From NCBI RefSeq assembly GCF_013366925.1, contig NZ_JAALDK010000001.1:3775165-3839164 (forward strand): a DNA stretch of 64,000 nt, given 5' to 3'. Below, piece by piece: positions 35,474 through 57,218 of the stretch. Origin of the DNA: Paraburkholderia youngii. Lineage in GTDB: Bacteria; Pseudomonadota; Gammaproteobacteria; Burkholderiales; Burkholderiaceae. A model generated the notes under the pieces. It searched no databases and had not been told where the DNA came from. It saw nothing but the letters and a program-made list of their open reading frames with translations. Position 1 is the stretch's first letter. Every line of letters starts with the position of its first letter. A program made the translations under genes and the position numbers.

Positions 35474-35877
35474 GTTGCGCCCGGCGCATACGCCGCGGCC
35501 ATCGCAACTCCATGCGGCAAAAGCCTTTTGACCGTCGCTAGATTTTTCGTCTCAATGGATCGGAAAAACGTATTGGTCGCCTCATGCGCTCGCGCATAAG
35601 CTAACGACAGACAACGTATCCAGACAGAACGAAATGCGCGCGGCATGACGCCCGAGCCGCGCATGACCCTCAGCGAGCCAATCCGAACGCACGGACCACG
35701 AGCAATGTATTCGCGGCCCGGGGTGCACGGTCGTCTTCGCGATTGGCGTGAGACCGGCGCGACACTGTCGCCGCGCGGCCCGCTTTCGACTCCTGCCTGA
35801 CGCTTGCAATGCCGCCATGAAGAAGCGGTGAAAGAACGGTCGACAAGTGCCCAATTACTCTCACTAGTGAGGAGACG
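35474..35877. other. Long leader region of the first catabolic operon
   Basis: This 404-base stretch has no supported gene. It carries the shared 27-bp element at 35550-35576, about 300 bases before the MFS start, so the message may have a long untranslated leader. I did not identify a terminator or a clear riboswitch fold. Confidence 0.5.
35550..35576 (+). promoter_or_regulatory. Shared 27-bp element, copy E1
   Basis: This copy begins TCTCAATGGATCGG and ends GTATTGG, and it is identical over 27 bases to copy E2 on the opposite strand at 44450-44476. Related copies lie at 44511 and 57192. It is followed by TCGC, making TTGGTC, the half-site of the TetR-type operators. It precedes the MFS-P450-SDR unit. 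Confidence 0.7.
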
Positions 35878-37248
35878 ATGCAACTCAACCCAGTCGCGCA
35901 AGGTCCCGAACGGTCCGACATGCATGCCGCCATCGAACGGAAGATTTTCCGGAAGGTGACGATGCGGATAGTACCGATCCTCATTTTGTGTTTCTTCATC
36001 AACTATATCGATCGCGCCAACCTCGGCGTTCTATTTTCCCCCATCTCCAAAGAACTGCATCTCACGGCGTCCGCTTTCGGTTTCGCCGCAGGTATCTTCT
36101 TTCTCGGCTACCTCGTGTTCGAAGTGCCATCGAACATGGCGATCGTGCGCTTCGGCGCGAGACGCTGGATCGCGCGGATCATGATTAGCTGGGGTATCGT
36201 CACTTGCCTGCTCGCGGCAACGCACAGCGTGCCGATGCTGTACACGCTGCGCTTTGTTCTTGGTGCCGCCGAAGCAGGGTTCTTTCCCGGCGTGCTGTTT
36301 TACCTAACTTTTTGGTATCCGCGACATCTGCTCGGCCAGGCCTATTTGACGCTCGAACTAAGCGTGCCCGTTTCGCTCGCGCTCGGCTCTGTCGTGACTG
36401 CCGGACTTCTTCTGATGGAGGGCGTAGCAGGCATCGCCGGTTGGCGCTGGGCCTTCGCGCTGGAAGGGATTCCCGCCATAGTGATGGGCTTCCTGGTCCT
36501 TTTCATTCTGCCGGATGGACCGAAGCAGGCAAAATGGCTGACGCAGGAAGAGCAAGACTATTTACTCTTGAGAACCGTTTCGGATCACGGACATTCAAAA
36601 GCGAGCCTGAGCGAATTCAAGGCCGTCGTATGCAACCCGCTGACATGGCTCTTTATCGCGCTCGAGTTCTCGATCATCATCGGCTTCTGGGCCGTCACAT
36701 ACTTCCTGCCAAAGATCGTGCAGGAGCGCTTTCACGTCGATCCCGTCCATGCGGGCCTGATCTCCTCGATTCCATGGTTGGCAGCTGTCGCCGGCATCGC
36801 GCTCGTGGCATGGACTTCGCGCAAGACCGGCGACCGGAAATGGCACTTGCTGATCGTCTTGCTGCTCTCTGCGGTCGGCCTGTGGATCACGGCGCGCGTC
36901 GATTCGCCCGTCGTCGGCCTGATCGGCATTTGTATCAGTGCTGCTGGCGTGCAGGCGGCGGTGCCGCTGTTCTGGACCATTCCCGCGATGTCCTTCAGTG
37001 GTGCGCGCGCGGCGATAGCAATTGCCTTTATCAACTCAGTCGCAAGTACAGCAGGACTCGTCGGGCCGTGGATTCTCGGCATTTCGCAGGATCTGACGGG
37101 AACCAGCCGGACCGGACTTTATGTGATGTCGGCCTTCTTCCTCATATCGGCATTTCTTGCTTTCCAGGTCAGTCAATCGCGTTCGAAAGCGGAGGTGGGA
37201 CGCGGCACGTCTGGCGTTTCGGCAGCGGGCAACGTCGGCTTGGAATAA
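35878..37248 (+). CDS. MFS transporter, anion:cation symporter (ACS) type
   Basis: A 456-residue inner-membrane carrier. INYIDRANLGVLFSPISKELHLT near residue 40 and the 'GYLVFEVPSNMAIVRFGARRWIAR' motif are typical of ACS-family aromatic- or organic-acid symporters (MhpT, PcaK-like, phthalate carriers). GAGGAG lies just before the ATG. It heads a + strand operon with a P450 (26 bases away) and an SDR. It probably imports the aromatic or terpenoid acid that the island degrades. Confidence 0.93.
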   Translation: MQLNPVAQGPERSDMHAAIERKIFRKVTMRIVPILILCFFINYIDRANLGVLFSPISKELHLTASAFGFAAGIFFLGYLVFEVPSNMAIVRFGARRWIARIMISWGIVTCLLAATHSVPMLYTLRFVLGAAEAGFFPGVLFYLTFWYPRHLLGQAYLTLELSVPVSLALGSVVTAGLLLMEGVAGIAGWRWAFALEGIPAIVMGFLVLFILPDGPKQAKWLTQEEQDYLLLRTVSDHGHSKASLSEFKAVVCNPLTWLFIALEFSIIIGFWAVTYFLPKIVQERFHVDPVHAGLISSIPWLAAVAGIALVAWTSRKTGDRKWHLLIVLLLSAVGLWITARVDSPVVGLIGICISAAGVQAAVPLFWTIPAMSFSGARAAIAIAFINSVASTAGLVGPWILGISQDLTGTSRTGLYVMSAFFLISAFLAFQVSQSRSKAEVGRGTSGVSAAGNVGLE

Positions 37249-37274
37249 CGGTTTTATATCGTGGAGTTAGACGC

Positions 37275-38507
37275 ATGCGAAAGGATGGGGATGTGACGGA
37301 TCACGACCACGTCGGACGCGACTTTCCGTTTCAACGGCCAGGCGGCCCGCTCAGCCCACCGCTCGAATACGCACGGCTGCGTGAGGAACAGCCGCTCAGC
37401 AAGGTCAGGCTTTGGGACGGCTCGACAGCCTGGATCGCGACCCGCTGGGAGGACGTGCGCGCGATCCTCGGAAGCCCGCATTTCAGCGTCGATCCGTTTC
37501 GTCCGGGCTATCCGTCGGTTTCGCCGGCACGCGCCGTGCAAGCACGATCGCGTCAGGCGTTCATCAACATGGACGACCCCGATCATGCGCGCTTCCGGCG
37601 GATGCTGACGAAAGACTTTATGCAGAAGCGCATGAGCGACCTGCGTCCGATGGTCCGCGAGCTCATCGACGAGCTAGTCGACAAGATGCTCCAGCATGGA
37701 CCGCCGCTTGATTTCGTCGAGCATTTTTCGCAGCCGCTTCCTTCGATGGTCATCTCCGCGCTGCTCGGCGTGCCGTACGAGGATCACGCGAAACTGGGCA
37801 CATGGAGTACGACGCGTAACGATCACACCGCGTCGCCGGAAACCGTGCAGGAGGCGGTGCGCAGTATGGAAGCGCATCTGGACCGGATCATCGCTCAGAA
37901 GGAGGTCGATCCCGGCGAGGGGCGCGACATGCTGAGCCGCCTGGTCATCGAGCAGATTCGTCCCGGACACGTGACACGTGAGGAAGTGGTGCGGATCGCC
38001 TCACTGTTGTATTCAGCCGGGCACGGCACCACGGGCAGTCAGATCGGTCTTGGCACGCTATCGTTGCTGATGCACCCCGAGCAGCGCGCCGAACTCGATG
38101 CCGATCCTTCGTTGCTCGCAAGCGCCATCGAAGAGATGCTGCGTTTTCACACGATTGCGCACTTCAATTCGGCACGCGTGGCGACGGTGGATGTGGTTGT
38201 CGGAGAAAACCTGATTCGCGCCGGTGAAGGCGTCTACCCGCTGATCTTCGCTGCCAATCGCGATCCCGATGTATTTCCAAACCCTGATACGTTCGATATC
38301 CACCGCAACCCGCAGGAGCATGTAGCTTTCGCCTACGGCATCCATCAGTGTCTAGGGCAACCGCTTGCGCGCCTCGAGCTGCAGACGGTGTTCAGCATGC
38401 TGTTCAGGCGTCTGCCTGGATTGCGGCTCGCGGTGCCGGTCGAGACGCTGACGTTCAACAGCACGTCTCAGGTTTATCGGCTGGAAGCCTTGCCCGTCAC
38501 ATGGTGA
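37275..38507 (+). CDS. Cytochrome P450 (first copy; altered I-helix)
   Basis: A 410-residue soluble bacterial P450. The ExxR motif is EEMLRFHTIAH (about residue 290), and the haem-Cys loop is FAYGIHQCLGQPLARLEL (about residue 357). The I-helix reads SAGHGTTGSQI: the acid of the usual AG-x-(D/E)-T-T is replaced by Gly. It is paralogous to the P450 at 58069, which has the canonical AGHETT. Electrons probably come from one of the ferredoxin/reductase pairs of the island. The gene overlaps the SDR start by 7 bases. The substrate is unknown. Confidence 0.95.
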   Translation: MRKDGDVTDHDHVGRDFPFQRPGGPLSPPLEYARLREEQPLSKVRLWDGSTAWIATRWEDVRAILGSPHFSVDPFRPGYPSVSPARAVQARSRQAFINMDDPDHARFRRMLTKDFMQKRMSDLRPMVRELIDELVDKMLQHGPPLDFVEHFSQPLPSMVISALLGVPYEDHAKLGTWSTTRNDHTASPETVQEAVRSMEAHLDRIIAQKEVDPGEGRDMLSRLVIEQIRPGHVTREEVVRIASLLYSAGHGTTGSQIGLGTLSLLMHPEQRAELDADPSLLASAIEEMLRFHTIAHFNSARVATVDVVVGENLIRAGEGVYPLIFAANRDPDVFPNPDTFDIHRNPQEHVAFAYGIHQCLGQPLARLELQTVFSMLFRRLPGLRLAVPVETLTFNSTSQVYRLEALPVTW

Positions 38508-39265
38508 GCGCACCCGAGACACCGCGCTTTGCTGGCAAAGTCGCGTTGATCACCGGCGGCGCCTCGGGCATTGGCCGTGCAACGGCGGAACTGCTGGCAC
38601 GCGAAGGGGCGCGTGTCGTCATCGCGGACCGGTGCCGCGAGGAGGGGAATGCGCTCGGCTCACGTCTGCGTCGCGACCACGGCGATGCCCTGTTCATCGA
38701 GACCGATGTCACCTGCCCGGACTCCATCGAAGCGATGGTCACACGCACCTTGCGCGAACACGGCCGCATCGATTGCGCCGTCAACAATGCCGGCTTGTCC
38801 GAGACGCCGATCGATCTGACCGACGCCACGCCCCAACATTGGACGCGTCTCATGTCGGTCAACCTGCGCGGCGTATTTCTTTCGATGCAGCACGAGATCC
38901 AGGCCATGCTGGAAAGCGGTGGTGCGATCGTCAACGTGTCGTCGCGCACGGGCCTGGTGGGCAAGCCGCGCCACGCGATCTATACGGCCGGCAAGCATGG
39001 CGTGCTCGGACTGACGCGATCGGCTGCCGTCGATTACGCGCGACACGGCATACGCGTCAACGCCGTCTGCCCGGGACTCGTGCGCACCCCTTTCGTCGAG
39101 CGAAAGCTCGGTGACCGCCTGGGTGAGCTGGCAGCTACGATGAATCCAATGGGACGCATCGGCGAGCCCGAAGAGATCGCTGAATGCATCGCGTGGCTGT
39201 GTTCCGATGCGGCGAGCTTCGTCACGGGCATCGCCTTGCCGGTGGATGGGGGCGCGGTGGCCTGA
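38501..39265 (+). CDS. Short-chain dehydrogenase/reductase
   Basis: A 254-residue classical SDR: cofactor motif TGGASGIGRATAELL, DVTCPDS, NNAGLSET, Ser in VNVSSRTGLVG, active site YTAGK, and PVDGGAVA at the end. It overlaps the P450 stop (ATGGTGA), so the two are translationally coupled and the SDR probably oxidises the alcohol formed by the P450. The SDR stop is convergent with the MmgE/PrpD gene, 21 bases away. Confidence 0.94.
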   Translation: MVSAPETPRFAGKVALITGGASGIGRATAELLAREGARVVIADRCREEGNALGSRLRRDHGDALFIETDVTCPDSIEAMVTRTLREHGRIDCAVNNAGLSETPIDLTDATPQHWTRLMSVNLRGVFLSMQHEIQAMLESGGAIVNVSSRTGLVGKPRHAIYTAGKHGVLGLTRSAAVDYARHGIRVNAVCPGLVRTPFVERKLGDRLGELAATMNPMGRIGEPEEIAECIAWLCSDAASFVTGIALPVDGGAVA

Positions 39266-39286
39266 TCACGCCGCGCCCGCCGCCCC

Positions 39287-40765
39287 TCATGCTTGCGTGA
39301 CCTGCGTGCGCATTGACAGGAACAAGGCGCTGAGACTCGCGGTGAGCCGTTCGACCGGCAATTCGTCGAGCGCCATGACCACGTCCGTCACTTCGCGCAC
39401 CGCGCGCTGAAGTTCCTCCGGGCCGCCGCCTGCCGCATCGAGCCCGGCCATCACGCCGAACTTGCTGCGGACTTGCGCGTCCGAGAAACGCGTCGTGTCG
39501 GTCCAGGGGTCGCCCGTCGCGTTATCGGCGGTCGCGCTGAAGACGGTGCCGCGCGCATGAATATCGACGCCGCCAGGCACCCCGCGCCATTGTCCGCCCG
39601 TCATCCATTCTGCGATGTTCGAAGAAGAGGGCTCGGCGGTGACCGTCACGCGTTCGCGGAACGCCGCGATGCGCGAGTCATTCATTGTTGTCGATTCGTA
39701 CCAGCGTGGACCCGGCGGAATCGCGTGGGCGAGGGCGGCGAGTGCGTGCGCATGGCTGAACTCGGCGCTGAGAAGATCCTTCGGCTGCTGTTCACGGAAG
39801 ATGGACGTGAGCGAGAACGGATTCGCCCGCACTACGACACGCGTGATTTCATCGGGCCGCAGCGCGTGCTGTTCCAGCAGTTGCGCGAACGCGGTCAGGG
39901 GGTGGTGGATCCAGCGGCAGCACGGCCAGGGCTTGTAGGTCGTATTGAGAATCTGCCAGTCGTCGCCGAGGCCGGCGAGTAGCGCGCGATCGTCGTGGCC
40001 CGGCGAGCCGTAGAACTTCCAGAATGCATTTTCGCCGTCGAGTATGTCCGTGAACCCCGTGCTGCCGAGTCGCGCAAGCAACGCGGACGATACGCCGATT
40101 TCCGCGCACCAACCGGCATCGGCGTATTTGTACATCGGCTGCTCGACGGATTCCGCCCATTTGCGCAGCGTAGGCTGCGGCGAATTGCTGCCGCCGATGC
40201 CGAACGCGTGATTGGCCTGCCTACCGTCCAGACGCGCGATGTGCACCGACGTGCCGATAGCTGCCCAGGTGATGGTGGCGGCAGGTCCGCCGAGCTCGTT
40301 CCAGCCGATCACCTTGCCGTTTTCGATCTGCATCGGCGCGCCCATCCAGCTGCCGATCCGTGCGCCGACATCGAAGCCCACGGCGATCGCGCCGAGCAGA
40401 TCGCGGCCGCTGCGGCTGTCGAGCTCGGCCAGCGCTAGCGCGGAGAACACGGTGGCGTTGCCGAAGTGCGTCGACGTGGGGAAAGTGTCGTCGGCGTCGA
40501 GCACGTTGGCGAGTCGCGCGTTGGCGTACGCCGCCGCCGTCGCCGAGCTGCGCCGTGCCGAGCCGACGACGCTCGCATGCGGCGCGCCACCGAGCATGTC
40601 GACATAGTCGAGCGCGATTTTTCCGCTTGGCGTATCGACAGCGCCGAGCGCGCAGCCGATCGTATCGAGCAGCAGGCGTTTCGTTTCATGCACGACGGGC
40701 TCGGGAAGATCTTCGAAGCGCGTCTGCACCGTGAAATCGGCCAATGTCTGCGTGAGCGAGGTCAT
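39287..40765 (-). CDS. MmgE/PrpD-family protein
   Basis: A 492-residue protein of the MmgE/PrpD family (2-methylcitrate dehydratase and relatives, also cis-aconitate decarboxylase-like). Typical blocks are ETKRLLLDTIGCALGAVDTP, ANARLANVLDADDTFPTSTH, NAFGIGGSNSPQPTLRKW and KPWPCCRWIHHP. It is the last gene of the MFS-etfBA-mmgE unit on the - strand. No methylcitrate synthase or isocitrate lyase is nearby, so it probably dehydrates or decarboxylates another intermediate. AGGAG precedes the ATG. Confidence 0.9.
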   Translation of the reverse strand: MTSLTQTLADFTVQTRFEDLPEPVVHETKRLLLDTIGCALGAVDTPSGKIALDYVDMLGGAPHASVVGSARRSSATAAAYANARLANVLDADDTFPTSTHFGNATVFSALALAELDSRSGRDLLGAIAVGFDVGARIGSWMGAPMQIENGKVIGWNELGGPAATITWAAIGTSVHIARLDGRQANHAFGIGGSNSPQPTLRKWAESVEQPMYKYADAGWCAEIGVSSALLARLGSTGFTDILDGENAFWKFYGSPGHDDRALLAGLGDDWQILNTTYKPWPCCRWIHHPLTAFAQLLEQHALRPDEITRVVVRANPFSLTSIFREQQPKDLLSAEFSHAHALAALAHAIPPGPRWYESTTMNDSRIAAFRERVTVTAEPSSSNIAEWMTGGQWRGVPGGVDIHARGTVFSATADNATGDPWTDTTRFSDAQVRSKFGVMAGLDAAGGGPEELQRAVREVTDVVMALDELPVERLTASLSALFLSMRTQVTQA

Positions 40766-40801
40766 GCGAAAACTCCTGAATGAACGATGAACAAACGCGC
40801 G

Positions 40802-41731
40802 TCAAAGCGCGTCCTGCAGTTGCGGCAGCGCCTCGAACAGATCGCCGACGAGGCCATAGTCCGCTACTTGGAAGATCGGCGCGTCGGCATCCTTATTGAT
40901 CGCGACGATCACCTTCGAGTCTTTCATCCCGGCGAGATGCTGGATCGCGCCCGAGATGCCGATGGCGACATACAGTTGCGGCGCAACGATCTTTCCGGTC
41001 TGCCCGACCTGCAGATCGTTCGGCGCGAAACCCGCATCGACGGCCGCACGCGACGCCCCTACGGCGGCGCCTAACTTGTCCGCGAGCGGATAGAGCAGTT
41101 CGAACAGCTCCGCGCTGCGCATGCCGCGCCCGCCGCTCACCACGATGTCCGCAGCGCTGAGGTCCGGGCGATCCGAGCGCGCCATTTTCTCGCCAACGAA
41201 GACTGAGGTGCCGCTATCCACAGCGCCCGTGACGGGCACGATGTCGGCGCTTCCGCCGGTTGCATCGACGGGCGTGAAGGCAGTCGCGCGCACGGTTGCG
41301 CATTTGATCGCCGCGCCCGACTGTACGGTCGCGATCGCGTTGCCCGCATGAATGGGGCGCTTGAACGTGTCGGCGGAAAGGACCGCGACAATATCGGAAA
41401 CGGGGTCCGAGTCAAGCAACGCGGCGATGCGCGGCAGCAGGTTCTTTCCGTGGGAGCTCGCCGCACACAGGACGTGGCTGAAGCCGACTGCCAGCGACAC
41501 GACGAGCGGTGCGAGGTTTTCCGGCAACTGATGCGCATACTCAGAATGATCGGCGATGAGCACGGTTTTCACATGTGCGATGCAGCGGGCTTGCGCCGCC
41601 AAGTCCTGCACTAAGTGCCCGGCCACGAGCAGCGTGATGTCGCCGCCGATCTCCCGAGCGGCCGCGACCGTGTTCAATGTAGCCGCGCCGAGCGCGCCGT
41701 TTGAATGTTCTGCGATTACGAGAATGGCCAT
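40802..41731 (-). CDS. etfA: Electron transfer flavoprotein, alpha subunit
   Basis: A 309-residue EtfA. The C-terminal FAD-binding signature is complete: [35 protein letters not shown], and [20 protein letters not shown], followed by [10 protein letters not shown]. It forms a heterodimer with the EtfB encoded just upstream (the ATG overlaps the etfB stop by one base). It takes electrons from acyl-CoA dehydrogenases to the ETF-ubiquinone oxidoreductase. It is probably dedicated to the acyl-CoA dehydrogenase at 48238. Confidence 0.97.
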
Positions 41732-42486
41732 CAGATCACCTTTGCTTCGGTCTTGAGCTTGTCGACGAGTTGCGCGACGGACGTCACCTTTACGCCGCCC
41801 TTGCGTTCGGCGGGCGGCTCGACACGCAGTGTTTCGAGCGTCGTCCCGACGGAAACGCCGAGCGCGCTCGCCGCGAGCGTCTCGAATGGCTTCTTCTTCG
41901 CCTTCATGATGCTGGGTAGCGTCGTGTAACGTGGCTCGTTAAGACGCAAGTCGGCCGTGACGACGGCGGGCAGTCGCAGCGTTACCGTCTGCAGGCCACC
42001 GTCCACTTCGCGCGTTACTGTCACGCGTTGCGCGTCGACGTCGACGTCGACGCTCGAGGCAAACGTGCCTTGCGGCCAGTTCGTGAGCGCGGCAAGCATC
42101 TGGCCCGTCTGATTGTTGTCGCTGTCGATCGCCTGCTTGCCGAGCAGGACGAGCTGCGGTGCTTCGCGTTCGACGACCGCCTTCAACAGCTTCGCGACGG
42201 CGAGCGCGCCGGGCGTCCCGGTCGTCTCGACCAGAATCGCCCGGTCCGCGCCGATCGCGAGCGCCGTGCGCAATTGCTCCTGTGCAGCGGCGGGGCCGAC
42301 TGACACCGCGACGATTTCTGTCGCGATACCTTTTTCCTTCAGACGAACGGCCTCTTCGACGGCGATTTCACAGAACGGATTGATCGACATCTTCACGTTG
42401 TCGAGTTCGACGCCGCTATGATCGGATTTGACGCGCACCTTCACGTTGTGATCGACGGCGCGTTTGACCGTAACCAATACCTTCAT
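41731..42486 (-). CDS. etfB: Electron transfer flavoprotein, beta subunit
   Basis: A 251-residue Etf[21 protein letters not shown], then [55 protein letters not shown] and [19 protein letters not shown] are all family signatures. It is normal in length. It forms the ETF dimer with EtfA and lies 71 bases after an MFS carrier. A pair located inside a catabolic island is probably an additional, pathway-specific copy of etfAB. Confidence 0.97.
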
Positions 42487-44213: not shown

Positions 44214-44449
44214 GGTGAACCTTTGAAATGCGGCGCCGCAAACGGAAAATGCGCGGCGCGGATGCGAATCGACGGCCATGCGTCCGGACTTGCGGACAGA
44301 CCGCCGTCGTTGAAGAGCCGTCGCGAGGCGATTATTCGGTGCGGATGGCGGGCATGGTGTCGTGTCTCCTGATGTTGGCTTTTGTCGGCTGCCGAAGCGT
44401 CTCGGCCTATCGGCTGCTTCACAGGATAGCCACGCATATGGGCCAGAAA

Positions 44450-44476
44450 CCAATACGTTTTTCCGATCCATTGAGA
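44450..44476 (-). promoter_or_regulatory. Shared 27-bp element, copy E2
   Basis: On the - strand it is identical over 27 bases to E1, starting TCTCAATGGATCGG and ending GTATTGG. It lies 237 bases upstream of the MFS start. A perfect copy near the promoter of a second unit implies shared control. Confidence 0.7.
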
Positions 44477-44510
44477 GGAAGAAACTTGGGTGCATATCAG
44501 AGGGAAATCC

Positions 44511-44537
44511 TCTGAATTCCTCTGCAAACAGTATTGG
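44511..44537 (+). promoter_or_regulatory. Shared 27-bp element, copy E3
   Basis: This copy begins TCTGAATTCCTCTG and ends GTATTGG. It aligns without gaps to E1, E2 and E4, and TCG follows to make TTGGTC. It lies 115 bases upstream of the FAD hydroxylase start. Confidence 0.6.
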
Positions 44538-44651
44538 TCGAGGCACGGGGGTGCTTGCTAGAGTGGCTTCACATCGAGGTGCCGCTGTCGAAAAGCAAGG
44601 CGGTGCGACGTAGGTTCTAACGACACGTGGAGCATGATGGAGCATTCAGCT

Positions 44652-46331
44652 ATGGCGCAAATCGAAGCGAGCGGGCACGCCCCGGTCGTCATTATTGGAG
44701 CGGGGCCGATCGGCCTCTCCCTCGCAGGCGATCTCGGGTGGCGAGGCATTCCTTGCGTGCTCATCGAACGCAGCGACGGCACCGTGTCCCAGCCCAAGAT
44801 GGACATGGTCGGCATCCGCACAATGGAATTCTGCCGCCGCTGGGGCATCGTCGAAGATGTCGAGAACGCGGGCTACAACCGGGACTATCCGCAGGACTAC
44901 GCCTGGGTGTCGCAACTGGCGGGCGGCTATGAATTCGGCCGCGAGCGGTTTCCGAGCGTGCGGGATGAGGCGCGCCCCGAGCAGAGCCCGCAAAAGCGCG
45001 AGCGCTGCCCGCAGAATTTCTTCGACCCCGTGCTGACGCGCTTCGCGCAGAAGACGGGTAAGGTGCAGTTCCGCTATTGCACCGAATACGTATCGCATGA
45101 AGAGCATGACGACGGCGTTTCCGTGACCGTGCGCGACCTGGCATCGGGCAAGGAAGATACGATCGAGTGCCAATATCTCGTCGGTTGCGACGGCGGCGCG
45201 AGCCGCGTGAAGGAGAACCTCGGGATCCGCATGACCGGTACGCCCGCGCTGACTTATACAACCAACGCGATTATCGAATGCAAGGGGCTCGAAGCCCTGC
45301 ACGACAAGAAGCCTGGCTATCGCTACATCTTCATCGGACCAGAAGGCACATGGAGCACGGTGGTCGCGATCAATGGACGCGACCAGTGGCGCTTTTCAAT
45401 CGTCGGCGACGGCACGATGCGCACGCTCTCAGAAGAGGATGTGGCGAAGGCTTTCCGGCGCGCTGTAGGCCGCGATGACTTCAATTTCAGGATTTTGTCG
45501 GTGATGCCGTGGATTCGCCGCCAGCTTGTCGCGGACAACTACGGCACCGCACGCGTGAAGATCGCCGGCGACGCCGCCCACCTGACTTCACCCACTGGGG
45601 GCTTCGGCATGAATATGGGCATCCAGGACTCCGTGGACCTCGGCTGGAAGCTGCAGGCGATGGTCGAGGGGTGGGGCGGCGAACATCTGCTCGATACCTA
45701 CGAGTTTGAACGCCGTCCGGTTGCCATCCGCAACGTCAACGAGGCGACCAACAATCTCAAGCTCATGCTCGCGCCACGCAAGAATCTGAGCCCCGCCGTG
45801 TTCGAGTCGGGCGAAGCGGGCGATGAGGCGCGCCGTGTTTTCGGCGATGCCTACACGGCGATGATGAAGCGCGAGTGGTACACGATCGGTATTCATTTGG
45901 GCTTCCGGTACGAAGGCTCGTCGATCGTTGTGCCCGATGGCACGCCGGAGCCCGAGGACACGATCAGCACCTATGTGCAGACTTCGCGTCCGGGCCATCG
46001 CGCGCCACACGTGTGGCTCGCGCCCGGCCGCTCCACGCTCGACCTGTTCGGCCAGAGCTTCGTGCTGCTGCGCTTCGACGCATCGCTCGATGTGGAAACG
46101 CTGCGCGACGCGGCGCAACGCGCGGGCGTGCCTTTCACGGTCGTCGATATCGGCGATGACGCGGCACGTGCCGTGTACGAGCGCGCACTCGTGCTCGTGC
46201 GTCCGGATGGGCACGTGGCATGGCGCGCCGACGCGGCACCCGAAGATGCGCAGGCGTTGATCGACGTGATTCGCGGCGTGTATCCCGTGAGGCCCGAGGC
46301 GGTCGTCACCGAAGAGGTGGCCACGCGATGA
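44652..46331 (+). CDS. FAD-dependent aromatic hydroxylase (PheA/TfdB/MhpA type)
   Basis: A 559-residue flavin monooxygenase. The FAD Rossmann motif is VVIIGAGPIGLSLAGDLGWRG, the second FAD motif is VGCDGGASRVKENLG (about residue 175), and the GD motif is KIAGDAAHLTSPTGGFGMN. A thioredoxin-like C-terminal domain ends LVRPDGHVAWRADAAP. It probably hydroxylates a phenol or aromatic acid to a diol. GGAG lies 9 bases before the ATG at 44652; earlier ATGs at 44634 and 44637 have worse spacing. It is the first gene of the main operon and its stop overlaps the next gene. Confidence 0.92.
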   Translation: MAQIEASGHAPVVIIGAGPIGLSLAGDLGWRGIPCVLIERSDGTVSQPKMDMVGIRTMEFCRRWGIVEDVENAGYNRDYPQDYAWVSQLAGGYEFGRERFPSVRDEARPEQSPQKRERCPQNFFDPVLTRFAQKTGKVQFRYCTEYVSHEEHDDGVSVTVRDLASGKEDTIECQYLVGCDGGASRVKENLGIRMTGTPALTYTTNAIIECKGLEALHDKKPGYRYIFIGPEGTWSTVVAINGRDQWRFSIVGDGTMRTLSEEDVAKAFRRAVGRDDFNFRILSVMPWIRRQLVADNYGTARVKIAGDAAHLTSPTGGFGMNMGIQDSVDLGWKLQAMVEGWGGEHLLDTYEFERRPVAIRNVNEATNNLKLMLAPRKNLSPAVFESGEAGDEARRVFGDAYTAMMKREWYTIGIHLGFRYEGSSIVVPDGTPEPEDTISTYVQTSRPGHRAPHVWLAPGRSTLDLFGQSFVLLRFDASLDVETLRDAAQRAGVPFTVVDIGDDAARAVYERALVLVRPDGHVAWRADAAPEDAQALIDVIRGVYPVRPEAVVTEEVATR

Positions 46332-49416: not shown

Positions 49417-50916
49417 ATGACGACGAGTTTTCATCCGGCGCTGGGTGAGGCGGCCCGCGACTTCCTTTCGCGCGAACACGGACTGCTGATCGACGGCCGC
49501 ATGATCGCATCCGATGGAGGCAAGCGCACCGACATCCTCGATCCCGCGACGGGCGAAGTGATCGCCACGGTCGCGGAAGCGACCGCCACCGACGTGGATC
49601 GCGCCGTCGAAGCCGCACGTCGCGCGCTGGAAGGACCGTGGCGCAAGATCACACCATCGGAACGCACGCGCATGATGCTGCGCTTCGCCGATCTGATTGA
49701 AGCGCACGGCGACGAGCTCGCGCAGCTCGAATGCATCAACAGCGGCAAGCCGCTGCCGTTCTGCCGCAACGGTGACGTGGTGGGCATCATCGAGATGCTG
49801 CGCTACATGGCCGGCTGGACCACCAAGATGAGCGGCGAGACACCGAACGTGTCGCTCCCGGGCGAATGGCACGCATACACGCTGCGCGAACCGGTGGGCG
49901 TGGTTGGGCAGATCATTCCGTGGAATTTTCCGCTCAACATGGCGATGTGGAAGATCGCGCCCGCCCTCGCAGCGGGTTGCGTGGTCGTTATGAAGCCGTC
50001 GGAGCAGACCCCTCTCACGGCGCTCAGGCTCGGCGAACTCGCGCTGGAAGCAGGGATTCCGCCAGGCGTGCTGAACATCGTGACTGGCTTCGGCAATCCT
50101 GTCGGCTCCGCGATCGCCGCTCATCCGGGCATCGACAAGGTCGCGTTCACCGGCTCCGGCGAGACGGGACGGCGCATTTTGCAGGCAGCGAGCGGCAACC
50201 TCAAGCGCGTCTCACTGGAACTGGGCGGCAAGTCTCCCGTGATCGTCTTTCCCGACGCGAACCTCGAAGCCGCGGCCGCGGGCGTGTGCTCGTCGATCTT
50301 CTTTCATGCCGGGCAGATTTGCGCGGCGGGTTCGCGACTCTACGTCCACGAACGCGCGTTCGAGCCGATGCTGGAGCTCATCGCCAAGCGCGCGAACGGC
50401 ATGAAGATGGGCCACGGCCTCGACGCTGGCACGGACATGGGTCCCGTCATCTCGCGGCGCCAGCTCGATCGCGTCGCGGGCTACATCCACAGCGGACAGG
50501 AAGAGGGCGCAACGCTCTACGCGGGTGGCGGCTCGTCGGGCGAACGCGGCTACTTCGTGCAACCCACCGTGCTGACCGGCGTCAAGCCCGGCATGAAGGT
50601 GCATGACGAGGAAATCTTCGGGCCGGTGCTGTGCGCGATGTCCTTCGACGACGACGACCTCGAGCGCATTGCTGCGACCGCGAATGCGTCGACGTACGGG
50701 CTCGCGGCCAGCATCTGGACGAAGGACATCGGCCGCGCGCACAAGATGGCGCGCCGCATGCAGGCGGGCATCGTCAACGTGAACGCGCTCTCGTCGCCCG
50801 ACGCGACCCTGCCCTACGGCGGCTACAAGCAATCGGGCTGGGGCCGCGAACGCGGCTTCGAGGCGATCGAGCTCTACACCGAGGTCAAGGCGGTCGCGAT
50901 CAATCTGAACAACTGA
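49417..50916 (+). CDS. Aldehyde dehydrogenase (NAD-dependent)
   Basis: A 499-residue ALDH-superfamily enzyme. The cofactor region is GQIIPWNFPLNMAMWKIAPAL, the NAD loop is FTGSGETGRRI, the general-base Glu is in LELGGKSPVIVF, and the nucleophile Cys is in HAGQICAAGSRLYV (about residue 300). A gating motif follows: EEIFGPVLC. It oxidises an aldehyde to the acid. AAGGA before the ATG at 49417 decides the start. It probably follows a P450/SDR pair that makes an aldehyde. Confidence 0.96.
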   Translation: MTTSFHPALGEAARDFLSREHGLLIDGRMIASDGGKRTDILDPATGEVIATVAEATATDVDRAVEAARRALEGPWRKITPSERTRMMLRFADLIEAHGDELAQLECINSGKPLPFCRNGDVVGIIEMLRYMAGWTTKMSGETPNVSLPGEWHAYTLREPVGVVGQIIPWNFPLNMAMWKIAPALAAGCVVVMKPSEQTPLTALRLGELALEAGIPPGVLNIVTGFGNPVGSAIAAHPGIDKVAFTGSGETGRRILQAASGNLKRVSLELGGKSPVIVFPDANLEAAAAGVCSSIFFHAGQICAAGSRLYVHERAFEPMLELIAKRANGMKMGHGLDAGTDMGPVISRRQLDRVAGYIHSGQEEGATLYAGGGSSGERGYFVQPTVLTGVKPGMKVHDEEIFGPVLCAMSFDDDDLERIAATANASTYGLAASIWTKDIGRAHKMARRMQAGIVNVNALSSPDATLPYGGYKQSGWGRERGFEAIELYTEVKAVAINLNN

Positions 50917-50945
50917 TGCAGACCACACAGGACAGGAGAATACCC

Positions 50946-51812
50946 ATGACAGGCAGCATCGACTACATCGCGAAGGACGGCCGGGCCTACATCACGATCA
51001 ACCGCCCGGAGAAGAAAAACGCGATGACGAGCGCCATGCTCGATCAACTCATGGACGGCTACGACCGGGCCGAAGCCGACGACGACGTGCGCGTGGTCGT
51101 GCTGCAAGGCGCTGGCGAAGACTTCACGACCGGCCACGATCTGGCTGAAGTCGGCACCGAATACGGAGAGACCACGTACGACGACAACGGTCGTCCGCGC
51201 AAGCCGAGCCAGCGCGCGCGACTGTTGCACGACAAGCGCTATATCGAACGCTTTGAGCGGATTTTCAAGTTTCTCAAACCAACGCTGTCGCTGGTCAAGG
51301 GCTATTGCCTCGGCGGCGGTTTGTACCTGGCCGAAGCGTCGGATCTCGTCATCGCGGCTGACACCGCGAAGATGGGACATCCGGAGCAGAAGCTCGGGCT
51401 GTCAGGCGCCGCCTATTTCGCCGCCTGGGAGATGATGACGCTCGGTCCGCGCAAGGCGCGCGAACTACTGCTGATGGCTGAGGTCTGGGACGCGCAAACC
51501 TGTCTCGCGAACGGTTTCGTCAACAAGGTCGTGCCACGCGCGTCGCTCGTCGAAGCGGGCGAGGAATGGGCGGAGCGCATCGTACGTTTGCCACGCGACG
51601 GCATCGTAATGGGCAAGGCCGCGACGAATCTGGCAATGAATGCGCTCGGCATCGACGCCCAGTTCTCCTACGGTCACGTTCTGCATACACTCGCCACCAA
51701 CGTGCGTTACGAAGCCGACGAGTACAACTTCATGAAGCAGCGCCGCGACAAGGGCGTGCGTGCGTCGAACCACGAGCGCGAAGCGTTCTACACCGAAAAG
51801 GACAAAGCATGA
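50946..51812 (+). CDS. Enoyl-CoA hydratase/isomerase family protein
   Basis: A 288-residue crotonase. Blocks are ITINRPEKKNAMTSAMLDQL, FTTGHDLAEVG, KPTLSLVKGYCLGGGLYLA and GHPEQKLGLSGAAYF. Both catalytic acids of the family seem kept: the Glu in GHPEQ and the Glu in KARELLLMAE. It hydrates the double bond made by the acyl-CoA dehydrogenase. AGGAG precedes the ATG. Its stop overlaps the CoA-transferase start (ATGA). Confidence 0.94.
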   Translation: MTGSIDYIAKDGRAYITINRPEKKNAMTSAMLDQLMDGYDRAEADDDVRVVVLQGAGEDFTTGHDLAEVGTEYGETTYDDNGRPRKPSQRARLLHDKRYIERFERIFKFLKPTLSLVKGYCLGGGLYLAEASDLVIAADTAKMGHPEQKLGLSGAAYFAAWEMMTLGPRKARELLLMAEVWDAQTCLANGFVNKVVPRASLVEAGEEWAERIVRLPRDGIVMGKAATNLAMNALGIDAQFSYGHVLHTLATNVRYEADEYNFMKQRRDKGVRASNHEREAFYTEKDKA

Positions 51813-52972
51813 AGACGGCGCTGCAGGGCCTGAAGGTGCTCGATTTCACCCAGATGATGACCGGCCCGTTCGCGACGATGATGCTCGGCGATTGCGGCGC
51901 CGACGTGATCAAGGTCGAGCAGCCGGAAGGCGATCCGTTCCGCCGCTCTGGCGAGACAACGCTCAACGGCGACGGCGCGTTCTTTCTTGGCGTGAATCGC
52001 AACAAGCGCGGCATCGTGCTCGATCTGAAGACGGAGGAAGGACAGGCTGCCGCGCGTGCGCTCGCCGCCGAGGCCGACGTGCTGGTTGAAAATTTTCGGC
52101 CGGGCTTTACGGAACGCGTCGGCATCGGCTATGAAGCGCTACGCGAACTGAACCCGCGCCTCGTCTACTGCTCGATCTCGGGCTTCGACCGCAACGGCCC
52201 CGACCGCAATCGCCCGGCGCTCGATATGATCATTCAGGCCATCTCGGGCGTCATGCAGGTCACGGGTACGCAAGAATCCGGCCCGCTCAAGACGGGATTT
52301 CCCTTCTCGGATCTTGTTACCGCGCTGCTAGCGGCGATCGGCATGCTCACCGCGTTGCAGGCGCGCGAGCGCACAGGCGAAGGACAACGCGTCGATCTGT
52401 CAATGCTCGACGCGAGCATATTCAGCCAGGTGCCGCGCGATGTGTATTTCGATCTGACTTCGAAGACGCCCTTGCGCATGGGCAACCAGCACTGGGACAT
52501 CGTGCCGAACAACACGTACGCGACGTCCGACGGCCGCGACATCATGATCATCACGATCAACGACAAGTTCTGGCAGGTGCTGTGCGACGCGCTCGATGCA
52601 CCGGAGCTCAAGACCGACGAGCGCTTCGCGACGAAGGCTGCGCGTCTTGCGAATCGTGAACCCGTGAACGACCGGCTCGCCGCGATTTTCGCGACCCGCG
52701 ATCTCGACGCGTGGGAAGCGCGACTGTCTGCGGCGGGCGCGATCTACGGCGCGGTGCGCACGTGGCCCGAAGTTTTCAGCGATCCGCACGTCGTCGACAA
52801 CTTGTTGAAGACGCTGCCGCACCCGAAGGGCGGCGAATTCAAGATCATCAATAATCCGCTGAACTTCTCCGCCACGCCGACGCGGATCGACCGCTCGCCG
52901 CCGATGCTTGGCGAACACAACGAGGAAGTGCTAAAGCAGCACGGCGGCGCATGGCCTGTGGTGGTCGCATGA
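51809..52972 (+). CDS. CaiB/BaiF-family CoA-transferase (copy 1)
   Basis: A 387-residue class III CoA-transferase. LKVLDFTQMMTGPFATMMLGDCGADVIKVEQ is the family start, and the catalytic Asp is in RPALDMIIQAISGVMQVTG (about residue 140). YCSISGFDRNGPDRN and RTGEGQRVDLSMLDASIF are conserved. It moves CoA from one acyl-CoA to another acid. It is coupled to the hydratase gene by a 4-base overlap. It is paralogous to the transferase at 60844. Confidence 0.94.
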   Translation: MKTALQGLKVLDFTQMMTGPFATMMLGDCGADVIKVEQPEGDPFRRSGETTLNGDGAFFLGVNRNKRGIVLDLKTEEGQAAARALAAEADVLVENFRPGFTERVGIGYEALRELNPRLVYCSISGFDRNGPDRNRPALDMIIQAISGVMQVTGTQESGPLKTGFPFSDLVTALLAAIGMLTALQARERTGEGQRVDLSMLDASIFSQVPRDVYFDLTSKTPLRMGNQHWDIVPNNTYATSDGRDIMIITINDKFWQVLCDALDAPELKTDERFATKAARLANREPVNDRLAAIFATRDLDAWEARLSAAGAIYGAVRTWPEVFSDPHVVDNLLKTLPHPKGGEFKIINNPLNFSATPTRIDRSPPMLGEHNEEVLKQHGGAWPVVVA

Positions 52973-53001
52973 GACGGGATCGGCAATAGCAAGGAGGCAT
53001 C

Positions 53002-54231
53002 GTGGAAAGGACCTGCATCATCGTCGGCGCGAGCCATGCGGCGGCGCAACTTGCGCCGAGCCTTCGGCAAGAAGGGTGGGAAGGGCGCATCATTGTGGTC
53101 GGCGACGAGGCCCATTTGCCGTATCATCGGCCGCCATTGTCGAAGGCGTATTTGCTGGGCGAAAAGAGCAGCAACGATCTGCTGATCCGGGCCGAGGACG
53201 CTTACGGCAAACTCGGCATCGAGTTTTGTCTGGGCGAGCGGGTCGTCGCGATCGATCGGGAACGCAAGTCAGTGATGCTGCGCGATGGCGCATCGCTCGC
53301 CTACGACAAGCTCGCGCTCTGCACCGGTACACGTGTGCGGACCGTTGCGCTCCCCGGCGCGCGACTCGAAGGCGTACATTACCTGCGCGGCATCGCAGAC
53401 ATCGATCGCATTCGCCGCCACGTGCAGCCGGGCGGGTACGCTGCAATTGTCGGCGGCGGCTACATCGGGCTGGAGACGGCGGCTGTGCTCAGGCGTCTCG
53501 GTATGCATGTAACCGTGCTCGAAATGGCGCCGCGCGTGCTCGCGCGTGTCACGGCGCCGGAGGTGTCTGGCTTCTTCGAGCGCGTGCATCGGGAAGAGGG
53601 CGTCGATATCCGCACGAGTGTCACCGTCGATCGTTTCGAGGGCGACGGGCACGTCAAGCGGATCGTCCTGAACGACGGCACGGCGCTCCCTGCGAGCCTG
53701 GTCGTGATCGGGGTCGGCGTGGTGCCTAACGTCGAGCTGGCGCAAGCGGCCGGGCTCGAGGTCGATAACGGCATCGTCGTCGATGAGTGTGCGCGGACCT
53801 CAGACCCGGACATCGTCGCGGCGGGCGACTGCACGCTACATCCGTCGCCGTACTACGGCCGCATCCGACTTGAATCGGTCCCCAACGCGACTGAACAGGC
53901 GAAAGCAGCCGCCGCGGCGCTGTGCGGCAAGGATAAGCCGTATCGTGCGACACCGTGGTTCTGGTCCGACCAATACGACATCAAGCTGCAGATTGCGGGC
54001 CTCAACACGGGTTACGACCAGGTCGTTGTGCGCGGGACGCGCGACACAGGCCGCAGTTTCAGCGCCTTCTACCTGAAGGAAGACCGGCTCCTCGCAGTCG
54101 ATTGCATCAATCGCGCGCAGGATTTTATGCTCAGCAAGCGCGTGATCGCCGAAGCCGTGCCACTCAATCCGGCATGCTTGGCCGACGAAGCGTTTTCATT
54201 GAAGTCGCTGTTCGAAACGGCGCAACACTAG
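53002..54231 (+). CDS. Ferredoxin reductase (putidaredoxin-reductase type)
   Basis: A 409-residue FAD/NADH ferredoxin reductase. FAD site IVGASHAAAQLAPSLRQEGW, NAD site IVGGGYIGLETAAVLRRLG (about residue 150), and the conserved SDPDIVAAGDCTLHP. It starts with GTG after AAGGAGG. It is followed by a [2Fe-2S] ferredoxin 30 bases away, so the pair forms one P450 redox chain. A second reductase/ferredoxin pair occurs at 59324-60819. Confidence 0.95.
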   Translation: MERTCIIVGASHAAAQLAPSLRQEGWEGRIIVVGDEAHLPYHRPPLSKAYLLGEKSSNDLLIRAEDAYGKLGIEFCLGERVVAIDRERKSVMLRDGASLAYDKLALCTGTRVRTVALPGARLEGVHYLRGIADIDRIRRHVQPGGYAAIVGGGYIGLETAAVLRRLGMHVTVLEMAPRVLARVTAPEVSGFFERVHREEGVDIRTSVTVDRFEGDGHVKRIVLNDGTALPASLVVIGVGVVPNVELAQAAGLEVDNGIVVDECARTSDPDIVAAGDCTLHPSPYYGRIRLESVPNATEQAKAAAAALCGKDKPYRATPWFWSDQYDIKLQIAGLNTGYDQVVVRGTRDTGRSFSAFYLKEDRLLAVDCINRAQDFMLSKRVIAEAVPLNPACLADEAFSLKSLFETAQH

Positions 54232-54260
54232 TCCGATCAAGTTAGACAGAGAGGTGTGCA

Positions 54261-54572
54261 ATGCCAGTCATCAAATACGTACAGGTAAGCGGTGAGGCCA
54301 CGGAAGTCGACGTGCCGCTCGGCAGTTCCGTGATGCAGGGTGCCGTCGACAACATGATCGCGGGCATCGTCGCCGAATGCGGCGGCGCGTGCAGTTGCGC
54401 GACCTGCGAAGTCTATGTCGACGATGCGTGGATGGGCGTGGTCGGCGAAGCGTGCGATGTCGAGCGCGAAATGCTCGAAGGTCTCGGAGAGCCGCGCAGC
54501 AATAGCCGCCTGAGCTGCCAGATCGAGATCACGCCGGAGCTGGACGGCCTCGTCGTCGCGATTCCTGGCTGA
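54261..54572 (+). CDS. [2Fe-2S] ferredoxin, adrenodoxin/putidaredoxin type
   Basis: A 103-residue plant/vertebrate-type ferredoxin. The cluster Cys residues are in AECGGACSCATCEVY (C-x5-C-x2-C) and, after about 37 residues, in RLSCQIEI. It ends in a short hydrophobic tail. It is the electron carrier for a P450, fed by the reductase encoded just upstream. A good GAGGTG site precedes the ATG. Confidence 0.95.
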   Translation: MPVIKYVQVSGEATEVDVPLGSSVMQGAVDNMIAGIVAECGGACSCATCEVYVDDAWMGVVGEACDVEREMLEGLGEPRSNSRLSCQIEITPELDGLVVAIPG

Positions 54573-54583
54573 CGGGAGGGCGT

Positions 54584-55456
54584 ATGGCGCTGACGGTGAG
54601 CGATCTGCTGTCGGTCCTTCGGGTGCGCGAGGAAAGTCGTCACATATTCGCGGGCGATTCGCTCTTCGATGGCGTGCGGCGCATTTACGGCGGACAAATG
54701 CTCGCCCAGTCGATCATGGCGATGGGGCGAACCGTGCGCGAGGCGCACGGCCTGCATTCGATGCAGGGTTATTTCGTACACCCTGGAGACGTGTCGAAGC
54801 GCATCCGCTTCGACGTGCAACTGGTGCGCGATGGCCGCAGCTTCAGCACGCGCCGGGTGACCGTCACGCAGAACGAGCACGTGGTGTTCATCGGCGCGGC
54901 CTCGTTTCAGGCGGCAGAGGGCGATCACGAGCGTCTCGCACGGATGCCGGACGTGCCATCGCCCGAACACATGCCCGCCGAAGCGGAGTTTTACGCGCGC
55001 GAATCACATCTGCTGGAACGACGCCGCTCCCACGTATCGACAATCATGACGCTCTTCGAGAGGCGCAGCGAGCTGTGGCGGCCTTGGCTCGATCCGGGCG
55101 TAATGGCGCCCGCCAACGGGCTTTGGTGCCGGTTGCGCGAGCCGTGCGGCGACGATCCTCTGCTCTGTCACGCCGTGCTAGCCTATGCTTGCGATCTCGA
55201 CCTGATGACCACCGCGATGCGTCCGCGCGGCCACGGCACGATGGACCGCCGCGCTCGCTCGGCGAGCCTCGATCACGCGATGTGGTTCCATGCGCCCGTG
55301 CGCCCCGATGCGTGGTTCTACTACGACATGAGCGGGCCGTGCGCGACAAACAATCGCGGGCTTGGCGCGGGCGCGTTGTATCAGGACGGGCGGCGGATCG
55401 GTACGGCGATGCAGGAAGGGCTGATGCGCGTCAATGAGGATGGGAGTCTTGCGTGA
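54584..55456 (+). CDS. Acyl-CoA thioesterase II (TesB type)
   Basis: A 290-residue double-hotdog thioesterase. IYGGQMLAQSIMAMGRTV and SMQGYFVHPGDVSKRIRFDV, RDGRSFSTRRVTVTQ and SLDHAMWFHAPVRPDAWFYY match TesB. It releases free acid and CoA, perhaps protecting the CoA pool or finishing a side-chain reaction. GGGAGG precedes the ATG, 11 bases after the ferredoxin. It closes the first part of the operon. Confidence 0.93.
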   Translation: MALTVSDLLSVLRVREESRHIFAGDSLFDGVRRIYGGQMLAQSIMAMGRTVREAHGLHSMQGYFVHPGDVSKRIRFDVQLVRDGRSFSTRRVTVTQNEHVVFIGAASFQAAEGDHERLARMPDVPSPEHMPAEAEFYARESHLLERRRSHVSTIMTLFERRSELWRPWLDPGVMAPANGLWCRLREPCGDDPLLCHAVLAYACDLDLMTTAMRPRGHGTMDRRARSASLDHAMWFHAPVRPDAWFYYDMSGPCATNNRGLGAGALYQDGRRIGTAMQEGLMRVNEDGSLA

Positions 55457-55498
55457 CGCCGTCGCGCAACCTATGAATGAATCAGGGTGAGCGACACG

Positions 55499-57154
55499 AT
55501 GGGTCAGTGGGATGACAAGTTCGAACGCGCTGCGCGGAGATGGGCCGAATGGAGGATGCACGAATATGCGCAGACCGAGCGCGTGATCGGCCATATCATC
55601 GAGGACAAGGCGCGGCGATATCCGCATCATGAAGTGTTCCGGTTTCGCGACCGGACCGTTACGTTCGACGAGCTGAACGCATCGTCGAATCGCGCGGCGA
55701 ATGGCTTTCGCGCGCTCGGCATCGAGCCTGGCGACAATGTCGCGCTGATGCTTTCGAACCGCGTCGAGTTCCTGTTCGCGTGGTTCGGGCTTAATAGAAT
55801 TGGTGCGGTTTGCGTGCCGATCAACGTCGCGCTGAAAGGCGAAGGCCTCGCGTATCAGATCGATCATGCAGATTGCGTTGCGCTCGTCGCCGAGCCCGCC
55901 TACGCCGGGACGCTAGGCGCGATCGCGGACCGGCTGCCGAAGCTGAACCACACGATTGTCGTGGATGCGGGCATGACGCCGCATCTCGCAGACTGGCCTG
56001 GGCGCGAAGCGCTGCACTTCGACGAACTAATGTCCCGCGCGGAGACCGCGCCCGGCGTTGCGGTGGACTTCAGGCAGTTATCGACCATCTCGTACACATC
56101 CGGCACGACGGGGCGCTCGAAGGGCGTGCTGATCAGCCATCACTATTGGTACGAAATCTGGTCGCAGGCGGTGAAGTACTCGCGCTATACAGACGAAGAC
56201 GTTCTCTACACCGGCCTGCCGTTCTTTCACACGAGCGCGCACGGGACGACCGGTCCCGCAATCCTTGCCGATGCGCAGGCGGTGTTCGTCGATCGCTTCT
56301 CGGCGAGCCGCATGCTCGACGATTGCCGCCGGTGGAATTGCACGTCGGCGAAATTCATCGGCGGGATGCTGTCGATCCTGATGAAGCAGGCGCCATCGCC
56401 GCTCGATGCCGACAATCCGCTTCGCTTGATGGTGGGTGCCGCCGCGCCGCCGCATCTTTGGCATGCTTTCGAGGCGCGCTTCAACACGCGCTTGCTTGAA
56501 CTGTACGGCATGACCGAATGCAGCAGCTGTCTGGTGAATCCGTACGACGACCGCCGCGCGGGCGCGTGTGGAAGGGCGATCACGGGCTACGACGTACGTA
56601 TCGTGGATGATTTGGACAATGAAGTAGAACGCGGCACGACCGGCGAATTGATCGTGAGACCGCAACGCCCGTTTCTCGGCACGAGCGGCTATTACAAGGA
56701 CCCCGCCGCGACGCTCGATCTGTTCCGGAATCTATGGATTCACACGGGCGACCTCGCGCGACAGGACGATGACGGTTATTTCCACTTCGTCGACAGAAAG
56801 AAGCAGGCGCTACGAAGGCGCGGTGAAAACATCTCGTCGTTCGAGGTTGAAGCCGTCATCGGGGCACATCCGGCGGTGCTCGAATCATGCGTGGTGGGCG
56901 TACCAGCCGAGATGGGCGAAGACGACGTGAAGGTGGTCATCGTGCTCAGACACGGCGAGCGACTCACGGAAGCGGAGCTGATTCGCTGGTGCGAGCCGCG
57001 TCTCGCGTATTTCGCCATTCCCCGTTATGTCGCGTTTCGCGACAGCCTGCCGAAAACGCCGAGCCAGCGCGTCGAGAAGTATCGGCTGCGCGCGGAAGGC
57101 GTCACCGACGACTGTTGGGATCGCGAACGCGCAGGCATCGTCATTCAGCGCTGA
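55499..57154 (+). CDS. Acyl-CoA synthetase (AMP-forming, CaiC-like)
   Basis: A 551-residue adenylate-forming ligase. The P-loop is ISYTSGTTGRSKGVLISH, the A5 motif is LELYGMTECSSC, the A7 region is HTGDLARQDDDGYFHF, and the A8 motif is RKKQALRRRGENISSFEVE. The catalytic Lys lies near KTPSQRVEKYRLR. It activates a carboxylic acid to its CoA thioester, the entry to the acyl-CoA steps. A GTG at 55487 is in frame, but AGGGTGAG fits the ATG at 55499 well. The gap of about 170 bases after it holds element E4. Confidence 0.94.
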   Translation: MGQWDDKFERAARRWAEWRMHEYAQTERVIGHIIEDKARRYPHHEVFRFRDRTVTFDELNASSNRAANGFRALGIEPGDNVALMLSNRVEFLFAWFGLNRIGAVCVPINVALKGEGLAYQIDHADCVALVAEPAYAGTLGAIADRLPKLNHTIVVDAGMTPHLADWPGREALHFDELMSRAETAPGVAVDFRQLSTISYTSGTTGRSKGVLISHHYWYEIWSQAVKYSRYTDEDVLYTGLPFFHTSAHGTTGPAILADAQAVFVDRFSASRMLDDCRRWNCTSAKFIGGMLSILMKQAPSPLDADNPLRLMVGAAAPPHLWHAFEARFNTRLLELYGMTECSSCLVNPYDDRRAGACGRAITGYDVRIVDDLDNEVERGTTGELIVRPQRPFLGTSGYYKDPAATLDLFRNLWIHTGDLARQDDDGYFHFVDRKKQALRRRGENISSFEVEAVIGAHPAVLESCVVGVPAEMGEDDVKVVIVLRHGERLTEAELIRWCEPRLAYFAIPRYVAFRDSLPKTPSQRVEKYRLRAEGVTDDCWDRERAGIVIQR

Positions 57155-57191
57155 TGCGCGCCGTCACGAAGCGGCAACGATAGGAAATCGG

Positions 57192-57218
57192 TCTCACTTT
57201 CTCGCAAAACAGTATTGG
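57192..57218 (+). promoter_or_regulatory. Shared 27-bp element, copy E4
   Basis: This copy begins TCTCACTTTCTCGC and ends GTATTGG, followed by ACC. It aligns without gaps to E1-E3 and shares 20 of 27 bases with E1. It lies 104 bases before the SDR start at 57322. Confidence 0.6.

Follow-up and report, generated by a model that had tools for sequence, protein, structure and literature searches.

A conserved promoter element ahead of four catabolic units of Paraburkholderia youngii and its probable recognition by a LysR-type regulator

LysR-type regulators act as tetramers on 50-60 bp of DNA, where the recognition site is often placed near -65 and the activation site lies at -35 (PMC8407307). 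In the case of BenM, PMC6628147 describes a site that overlaps the -35 hexamer, with a run of A between the half-sites, and gives GTAT as the canonical 3' half-site. The control of catabolic operons by one LysR-type regulator is a familiar one. This work deals with a 27-bp element that is present in four copies (E1 to E4) within a cluster of catabolic genes of Paraburkholderia youngii, located in a stretch of DNA of 64 kb that was analysed as a whole (the window). We consider it likely that four co-regulated promoters have E1-E4 as their cores, and that the LysR-type activator encoded in the same cluster (LysR from here on) binds each of them near -65 and at -35.

The proteins of solved structure closest to LysR are CbnR, BenM and CatM, and it is related to all three. 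The likeness to the BenM/CatM system of aromatic catabolism (promoters PbenA and PcatB) extends to the DNA, where the element overlaps the -35 hexamer and carries an A-run and the 3' half-site GTAT, as described for BenM and CatM (PMC6628147). On the other hand, only the GTAT half is found here, and ATAC-N7-GTAT is not, the left half being other than ATAC in E1-E4; residue 34, which in BenM is the specificity residue Arg, is Ala in the LysR of the window and Gln in that of Pseudomonas bohemica, G062 and Vreelandella titanicae; and there are four promoters and a far-off regulator gene. The lack of ATAC-N7-GTAT and the presence of Ala34 lead us to describe the site as LysR-type-like and not to class it as a BenM/CatM site. 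With LysR-type promoters in general, this locus shares a conserved block from about -75 to -34 and, in E3, a dyad near -65, but the canonical T-N11-A is not clearly seen at -65, lysR is not divergent from a target, and no copy of the element was seen before it. Pro30, which contacts the T of T-N11-A (PMC12609908), is kept in LysR. The palindromic operators of TetR-type regulators are also to be considered, since a TetR gene with putative operators of this type is found 0.34-0.53 kb from E1; however, E1-E4 are not palindromes of this kind, and TetR is not found in three genomes that carry the element.

When the sequence was read again, E1 and E2 proved to be identical over 27 bases on opposite strands, and E3 and E4 can be aligned with them without gaps, all four ending at the 3' side in GTATTGG. 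Seventeen of the 27 positions (1-3, 5, 7, 11, 12, 16-18 and 21-27) are invariant, and each copy lies upstream of its own gene unit, at 302 (E1), 237 (E2), 97 (E3) and 104 bp (E4) from the first gene. Apart from the list of positions and the distances, all of this had been noticed in the preliminary description and stands. The description of the repeat as 27 bp long also holds, although not as its full extent, because conservation covers a longer promoter, with these 27 bp as its core.

The pattern of 17 positions, with up to 2 mismatches, matches the window four times, as against no match in 100 dinucleotide-preserving shuffles. Throughout the 9.49-Mb genome, nine matches were obtained with up to 3 mismatches, and the exact ones are just four, all of them E1-E4, so that the element is not due to chance. 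A second pattern, partly degenerate, recovered the same four sites, and its control none. This genome-wide search had been proposed as a check, since an equal density of the motif at unrelated loci would have refuted the reading; it did not do so, and exact matches were confined to the cluster. The remaining five matches lie elsewhere and carry 2-3 mismatches; we took them as chance copies and rejected them, given that the reversed control pattern yields three matches. At one of these five weak loci (L067) no cluster homologue was found.

The same confinement is observed in related bacteria. Within the genus, the pattern at up to 1 mismatch is found in 8 of 144 genomes (24 sites, all within cluster-bearing regions), and its reversed control in none of the 144. 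In the family, 20 of 398 genomes contain a match at this threshold, and 16 of these have at least one match beside cluster homologues. The other four (G155, G188, G282 and G451) have a single match each, with 1 mismatch, and neither LysR nor a close cluster homologue; the match of G155 has a FAH-like homologue nearby, at 31%. As the reversed control also gives one match in each of three of the 398 genomes (G222, G380 and G432), four stray matches are about the number expected by chance. The element was present in all 12 named relatives: P. nodosa, P. oxyphila, a Paraburkholderia metagenome-assembled genome (MAG), five species of Caballeronia, two strains that bear the label Burkholderia sp., and the gammaproteobacteria P. 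bohemica and V. titanicae. In four more distant hits of the search for relatives (L063-L066) it was not seen at a matrix score of at least 9. In G250, one exact match (L144, C5:502329-502355) has no cluster homologue within 3 kb and lies about 14 kb from two matches that do.

Comparison of rearranged clusters shows that the element follows the heads of operons and not particular genes. P. nodosa (G060; L035 and L036) has a rearranged cluster with five good copies. Four of them precede an enoyl-CoA (coenzyme A) hydratase, a major facilitator superfamily (MFS) transporter, the flavin adenine dinucleotide (FAD) monooxygenase and a ferredoxin reductase, and the fifth a porin with a GMC oxidoreductase after it. 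There is also a degenerate divergent pair, with 3 mismatches in each copy, between two MFS genes. Copies face an aldehyde dehydrogenase in G210 and G378, a pair formed by a short-chain dehydrogenase/reductase (SDR) and an MFS protein in G461 and G465, and an OprD porin and an SDR-P450 unit in P. bohemica. V. titanicae has, on another contig, two copies that face genes of DctQ- and DctP-type tripartite ATP-independent periplasmic (TRAP) transporters. In their case the motif search came first and the gene context was read afterwards; the second lies between homologues of the SDR and the ferredoxin reductase of the cluster, and the first was assigned by its distance of 13 kb from the second. With up to 3 mismatches, V. 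titanicae gives 10 matches versus 14 of the reversed control, and therefore weak matches in this genome mean little.

The anatomy of the promoters was studied in an alignment of 51 rows, of which 5 belong to the E1 class, 14 to E2, 15 to E3, 13 to E4 and 4 to gammaproteobacteria, the last being profiled apart; four of the initial 55 rows, weak and with no classed downstream gene, were left out of the classes. Sites were called strong at a matrix score of at least 24 (50 of the 55 rows). Conservation starts about 14 bases upstream of the 27-bp element, declines across the spacer and rises again at a -10-like hexamer. The closing TTGG resembles a -35 hexamer, and the best spacing from TTGGNN to the -10-like hexamer is 18 bp in E1 and 19 bp in E2, E3, E4 and the gammaproteobacterial rows. 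The -10-like hexamer is clear in E1-E3 and weaker in E4. If this hexamer is taken to end at -7, position 1 of the element falls at about -60 and position -4 at about -65. The core hexamers are poor matches to sigma-70. An A at element position -9 is present in 49 of the 50 strong sites; this A is outside the search pattern, whereas the search in itself gives TCT, AAA and GTATTGG an advantage. In the two gammaproteobacterial genomes the A occurs in all six sites assigned to the cluster and in none of four other matches, one of which (L124) may not be pure chance, because a 63% EtfA homologue is nearby. In the three copies at L061 of P. bohemica, positions -11 to -9 still read AGA and positions 1-3 TCT. 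The positions of the elements and of the predicted promoter parts are collected in Table 1, together with the gene units and regulators.

Table 1. Features of the catabolic cluster and its promoters, in coordinates of the window. Box positions are numbered from the first base of the 27-bp element.
Feature	Position	Strand	Remarks
E1, 27-bp core	35550-35576	+	Reads TCTCAATGGATCGGAAAAACGTATTGG; heads unit 1
E2, 27-bp core	44450-44476	-	Reads TCTCAATGGATCGGAAAAACGTATTGG; heads unit 2
E3, 27-bp core	44511-44537	+	Reads TCTGAATTCCTCTGCAAACAGTATTGG; heads unit 3
E4, 27-bp core	57192-57218	+	Reads TCTCACTTTCTCGCAAAACAGTATTGG; heads unit 4
Putative upstream box, E1	35538-35552	+	Positions -11 to 3; conserved A (-9) and TCT (1-3)
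Putative upstream box, E2	44474-44488	-	Dyad weak
Putative upstream box, E3	44499-44513	+	AGAGGGAAATCCTCT; clear dyad near -65, class score 0.87 at its centre
Putative upstream box, E4	57180-57194	+	Best E4 dyad 3 bases off, centre -7
-10-like hexamer, E1	35597-35602	+	TAAGCT, 18 bp after TTGGTC
-10-like hexamer, E2	44423-44428	-	TATCCT, 19 bp after TTGGTT
-10-like hexamer, E3	44559-44564	+	TAGAGT, 19 bp after TTGGTC
-10-like hexamer, E4	57240-57245	+	AATCTT, 19 bp after TTGGAC; weak consensus match, conserved in orthologues
Unit 1	MFS 35878; P450 37275-38507; SDR to 39265	+	Family scans
Unit 2	MFS 44213-42558; two ETF-like genes; MmgE/PrpD-like 40765-39287	-	Family scans
Unit 3	FAD monooxygenase 44634 to acyl-CoA ligase 57154	+	Family scans
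Unit 4	SDR 57322; P450 58069; ferredoxin reductase 59506; CoA-transferase to 62019	+	Family scans
LysR-type regulator, proposed binder of E1-E4	62025-63038	-	HTH_1 and LysR_substrate domains
TetR-type regulator, judged not to bind E1-E4	34366-35019	-	Family scan, relatives
Three TetR-type dyads, proposed TetR operators	35077-35092; 35173-35188; 35195-35210		TTGGTC-N4-GACCAA type

Two candidate boxes can be proposed within this promoter. The upstream one would cover element positions -11 to 3 and has its best dyad in E3; taken over all classes, the dyad is only suggestive. The downstream one would correspond to positions 10-24, which are conserved and overlap TTGG, with no more than a moderate dyad score at their centre. 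There, T11 and A23 appear together, at the spacing of T-N11-A, in 45 of the 50 strong sites, a combination that the selection by matrix favours, and the right half GTAT is found in all 50, in part by construction.

From these elements the following mechanism can be drawn. Relative to the predicted start, the core would extend from about -60 to -34 and end in the -35-like TTGG, and LysR would bind each promoter as a tetramer, with one dimer at the box near -65 and the other at positions 10-24 (T11, AAA and GTAT), overlapping the -35 hexamer. With its inducer, probably an intermediate of the pathway, LysR would recruit RNA polymerase and thereby bring about the joint production of transporters, P450s, ring-cleavage enzymes and CoA enzymes. 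The analysis shows the element itself, where it lies, how far it is confined and conserved, and that it co-occurs with LysR; the binding by LysR, the tetramer geometry, the activation and the inducer are what we infer; activation by a pathway intermediate is suggested by the LysR family of the regulator, the weak core hexamers and the overlap with -35. The idea advanced in the preliminary description, one regulon whose units have a promoter or activator site in common, is supported by exact copies limited to the cluster in its own genome, by copies at operon heads when the cluster is rearranged or carried by other genera and by -10-like hexamers at 18-19 bp, with the part on activation being deduced.

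As for the regulator, a LysR orthologue was found in all 23 genomes tested that have both element and cluster (its own, 10 relatives, P. bohemica, V. titanicae and 10 more), with identities of 69-97% (80% in P. bohemica and 69% in V. titanicae). LysR is present in all 16 family genomes with a match beside the cluster: a search in 14 family genomes with an element match gave 10 with an orthologue at E<=1e-90, and the other six (its own, G060, G088, G250, G270 and G374) also carry it. In the genus, it occurs in 9 of 144 genomes, namely the eight with the element and G129, and this co-occurrence has a Fisher p of 2.4e-12, a value not corrected for kinship.

Several observations weigh against this interpretation, besides the unclear T-N11-A at -65 and the Ala in place of the specificity Arg at residue 34. 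A strict sigma-70 scan of 44300-44660 found no promoter, and the preference of E4 for 19 bp is slight (score 4.9, versus 4.3 at 16 bp). E2 and E4 have poor dyads at the -65 centre, and the all-class dyad is matched by column shuffles in 0.24 of the trials when all centres are considered and in 0.0175 at this centre, which had been noticed in E3 beforehand. G129 (84% complete, 610 contigs) has LysR and only a match with 3 mismatches. Co-occurrence does not separate LysR from the other genes of the cluster. Moreover, no element precedes lysR in the window at a matrix score of 9, and the upstream regions of 14 lysR sequences have in common only a stretch resembling a ribosome-binding site.

A regulator encoded outside the cluster could bind the elements instead of LysR, and the departure of the box near -65 from the canonical LysR box speaks for it. 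Nevertheless, we regard this as unlikely: in our searches the element was confined to genomes that bear the cluster, it is kept in two gammaproteobacteria of very different background, and the AraC gene of the window (18570) was found beside the cluster in none of 10 relatives.

Repression of the four promoters by TetR through E1-E4 is somewhat less probable still, despite the proximity of its gene to E1 (0.53 kb), the presence of an orthologue in 10 of 11 genomes tested and the sequence TTGGTC of E1 and E3, identical to one half of the TetR dyad. The search for TetR gave nothing in G047 (E<=1e-30), a bearer of all four elements, or in the two gammaproteobacteria P. bohemica and V. titanicae (E<=1e-15, with no positive control, so that the empty result by itself shows nothing); the failure to find it in these three genomes is what allows co-occurrence to separate LysR from TetR. 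The half-site is missing in E2 (TTGGTT) and E4 (TTGGAC), and the second half in every copy. TetR promoters carry conserved dyads of their own: the three of Table 1, within 35077-35210, are the only ones of at least 12/14 in the window, none coincides with E1-E4, and they are conserved upstream of TetR orthologues. As a binder of E1-E4, TetR was considered unlikely for these reasons, and the data favour LysR. On one side of the dyads is the TetR gene and on the other a divergent open reading frame (ORF) of 78 amino acids (35237-35473, part of the ORF 35195-35473), and the region 35077-35210 looks like a separate divergent promoter controlled by TetR.

It is equally improbable that the elements are just strong core promoters or recent duplicates with no common regulator: the window, G270 and G374 each have E1 and E2 copies that agree in all 27 bp, but recent duplication was rejected on finding that the orthologues of E1 and E2 differ from each other in G047 and G135, spacers drift across relatives while the core stays, and plain core promoters would fit neither a conserved block that reaches about 25-40 bases upstream of -35 nor the poor sigma-70 hexamers.

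In the cluster, the TetR gene precedes unit 1, and the LysR gene comes after unit 4. According to the family scans, unit 3 encodes the FAD monooxygenase, a FAH-like protein, a gentisate-dioxygenase-like cupin, an acyl-CoA dehydrogenase, an aldehyde dehydrogenase, an enoyl-CoA hydratase, a CoA-transferase, a ferredoxin reductase, a thioesterase and the acyl-CoA ligase. The identity of the pathway was not given by the homologues of the cupin, which bear only generic names among the best 120 of 2375. The cluster is rare (the cupin is present in 6 of 299 family genomes). When the region 35550-63985 was compared with G270, G374 and G088, its proteins were 86-98% like those of Caballeronia and 67-95% like those of the same-genus genome WSM2230; exchange of the cluster between genera is likely. 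An IS3-type transposase (30719-31609) and a DDE transposase-like ORF (27024-27737) are located a few kb before the cluster. In a Rhodococcus MAG (L063), distant homologues (43-51%) of three unit 3 proteins, namely the FAD monooxygenase, the cupin and the FAH-like protein, are near one another, without the element, which we interpret as a related ring-cleavage module in Actinobacteria.

No published description of the regulon or of the pathway was found in searches of the open-access literature, and among the papers listed for GTATTGG together with LysR, none was on this subject by its title. The element defines by sequence which genes belong to the regulon of a degradation pathway with no description found, whose genes include two P450s, a FAD monooxygenase, a gentisate-dioxygenase-like cupin, a FAH-like hydrolase and CoA enzymes, and the analysis singles out LysR as the candidate regulator. 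The motif is specific enough to flag accessory genes that are missing from the window, such as the OprD porin of P. bohemica, the porin and GMC oxidoreductase of P. nodosa and the TRAP transporter genes of V. titanicae. Besides, a LysR-type operator known in about 50 natural variants is well suited to an analysis of its contacts. As a more tentative and rather doubtful proposal, a LysR operator may here have become a near-invariant promoter cassette, in which the contacts of the regulator are fused with the -35 hexamer in place of the usual variable T-N11-A box; such a cassette would move with the cluster between Betaproteobacteria and Gammaproteobacteria, heading whatever gene comes first in the operon, as a portable control signal.

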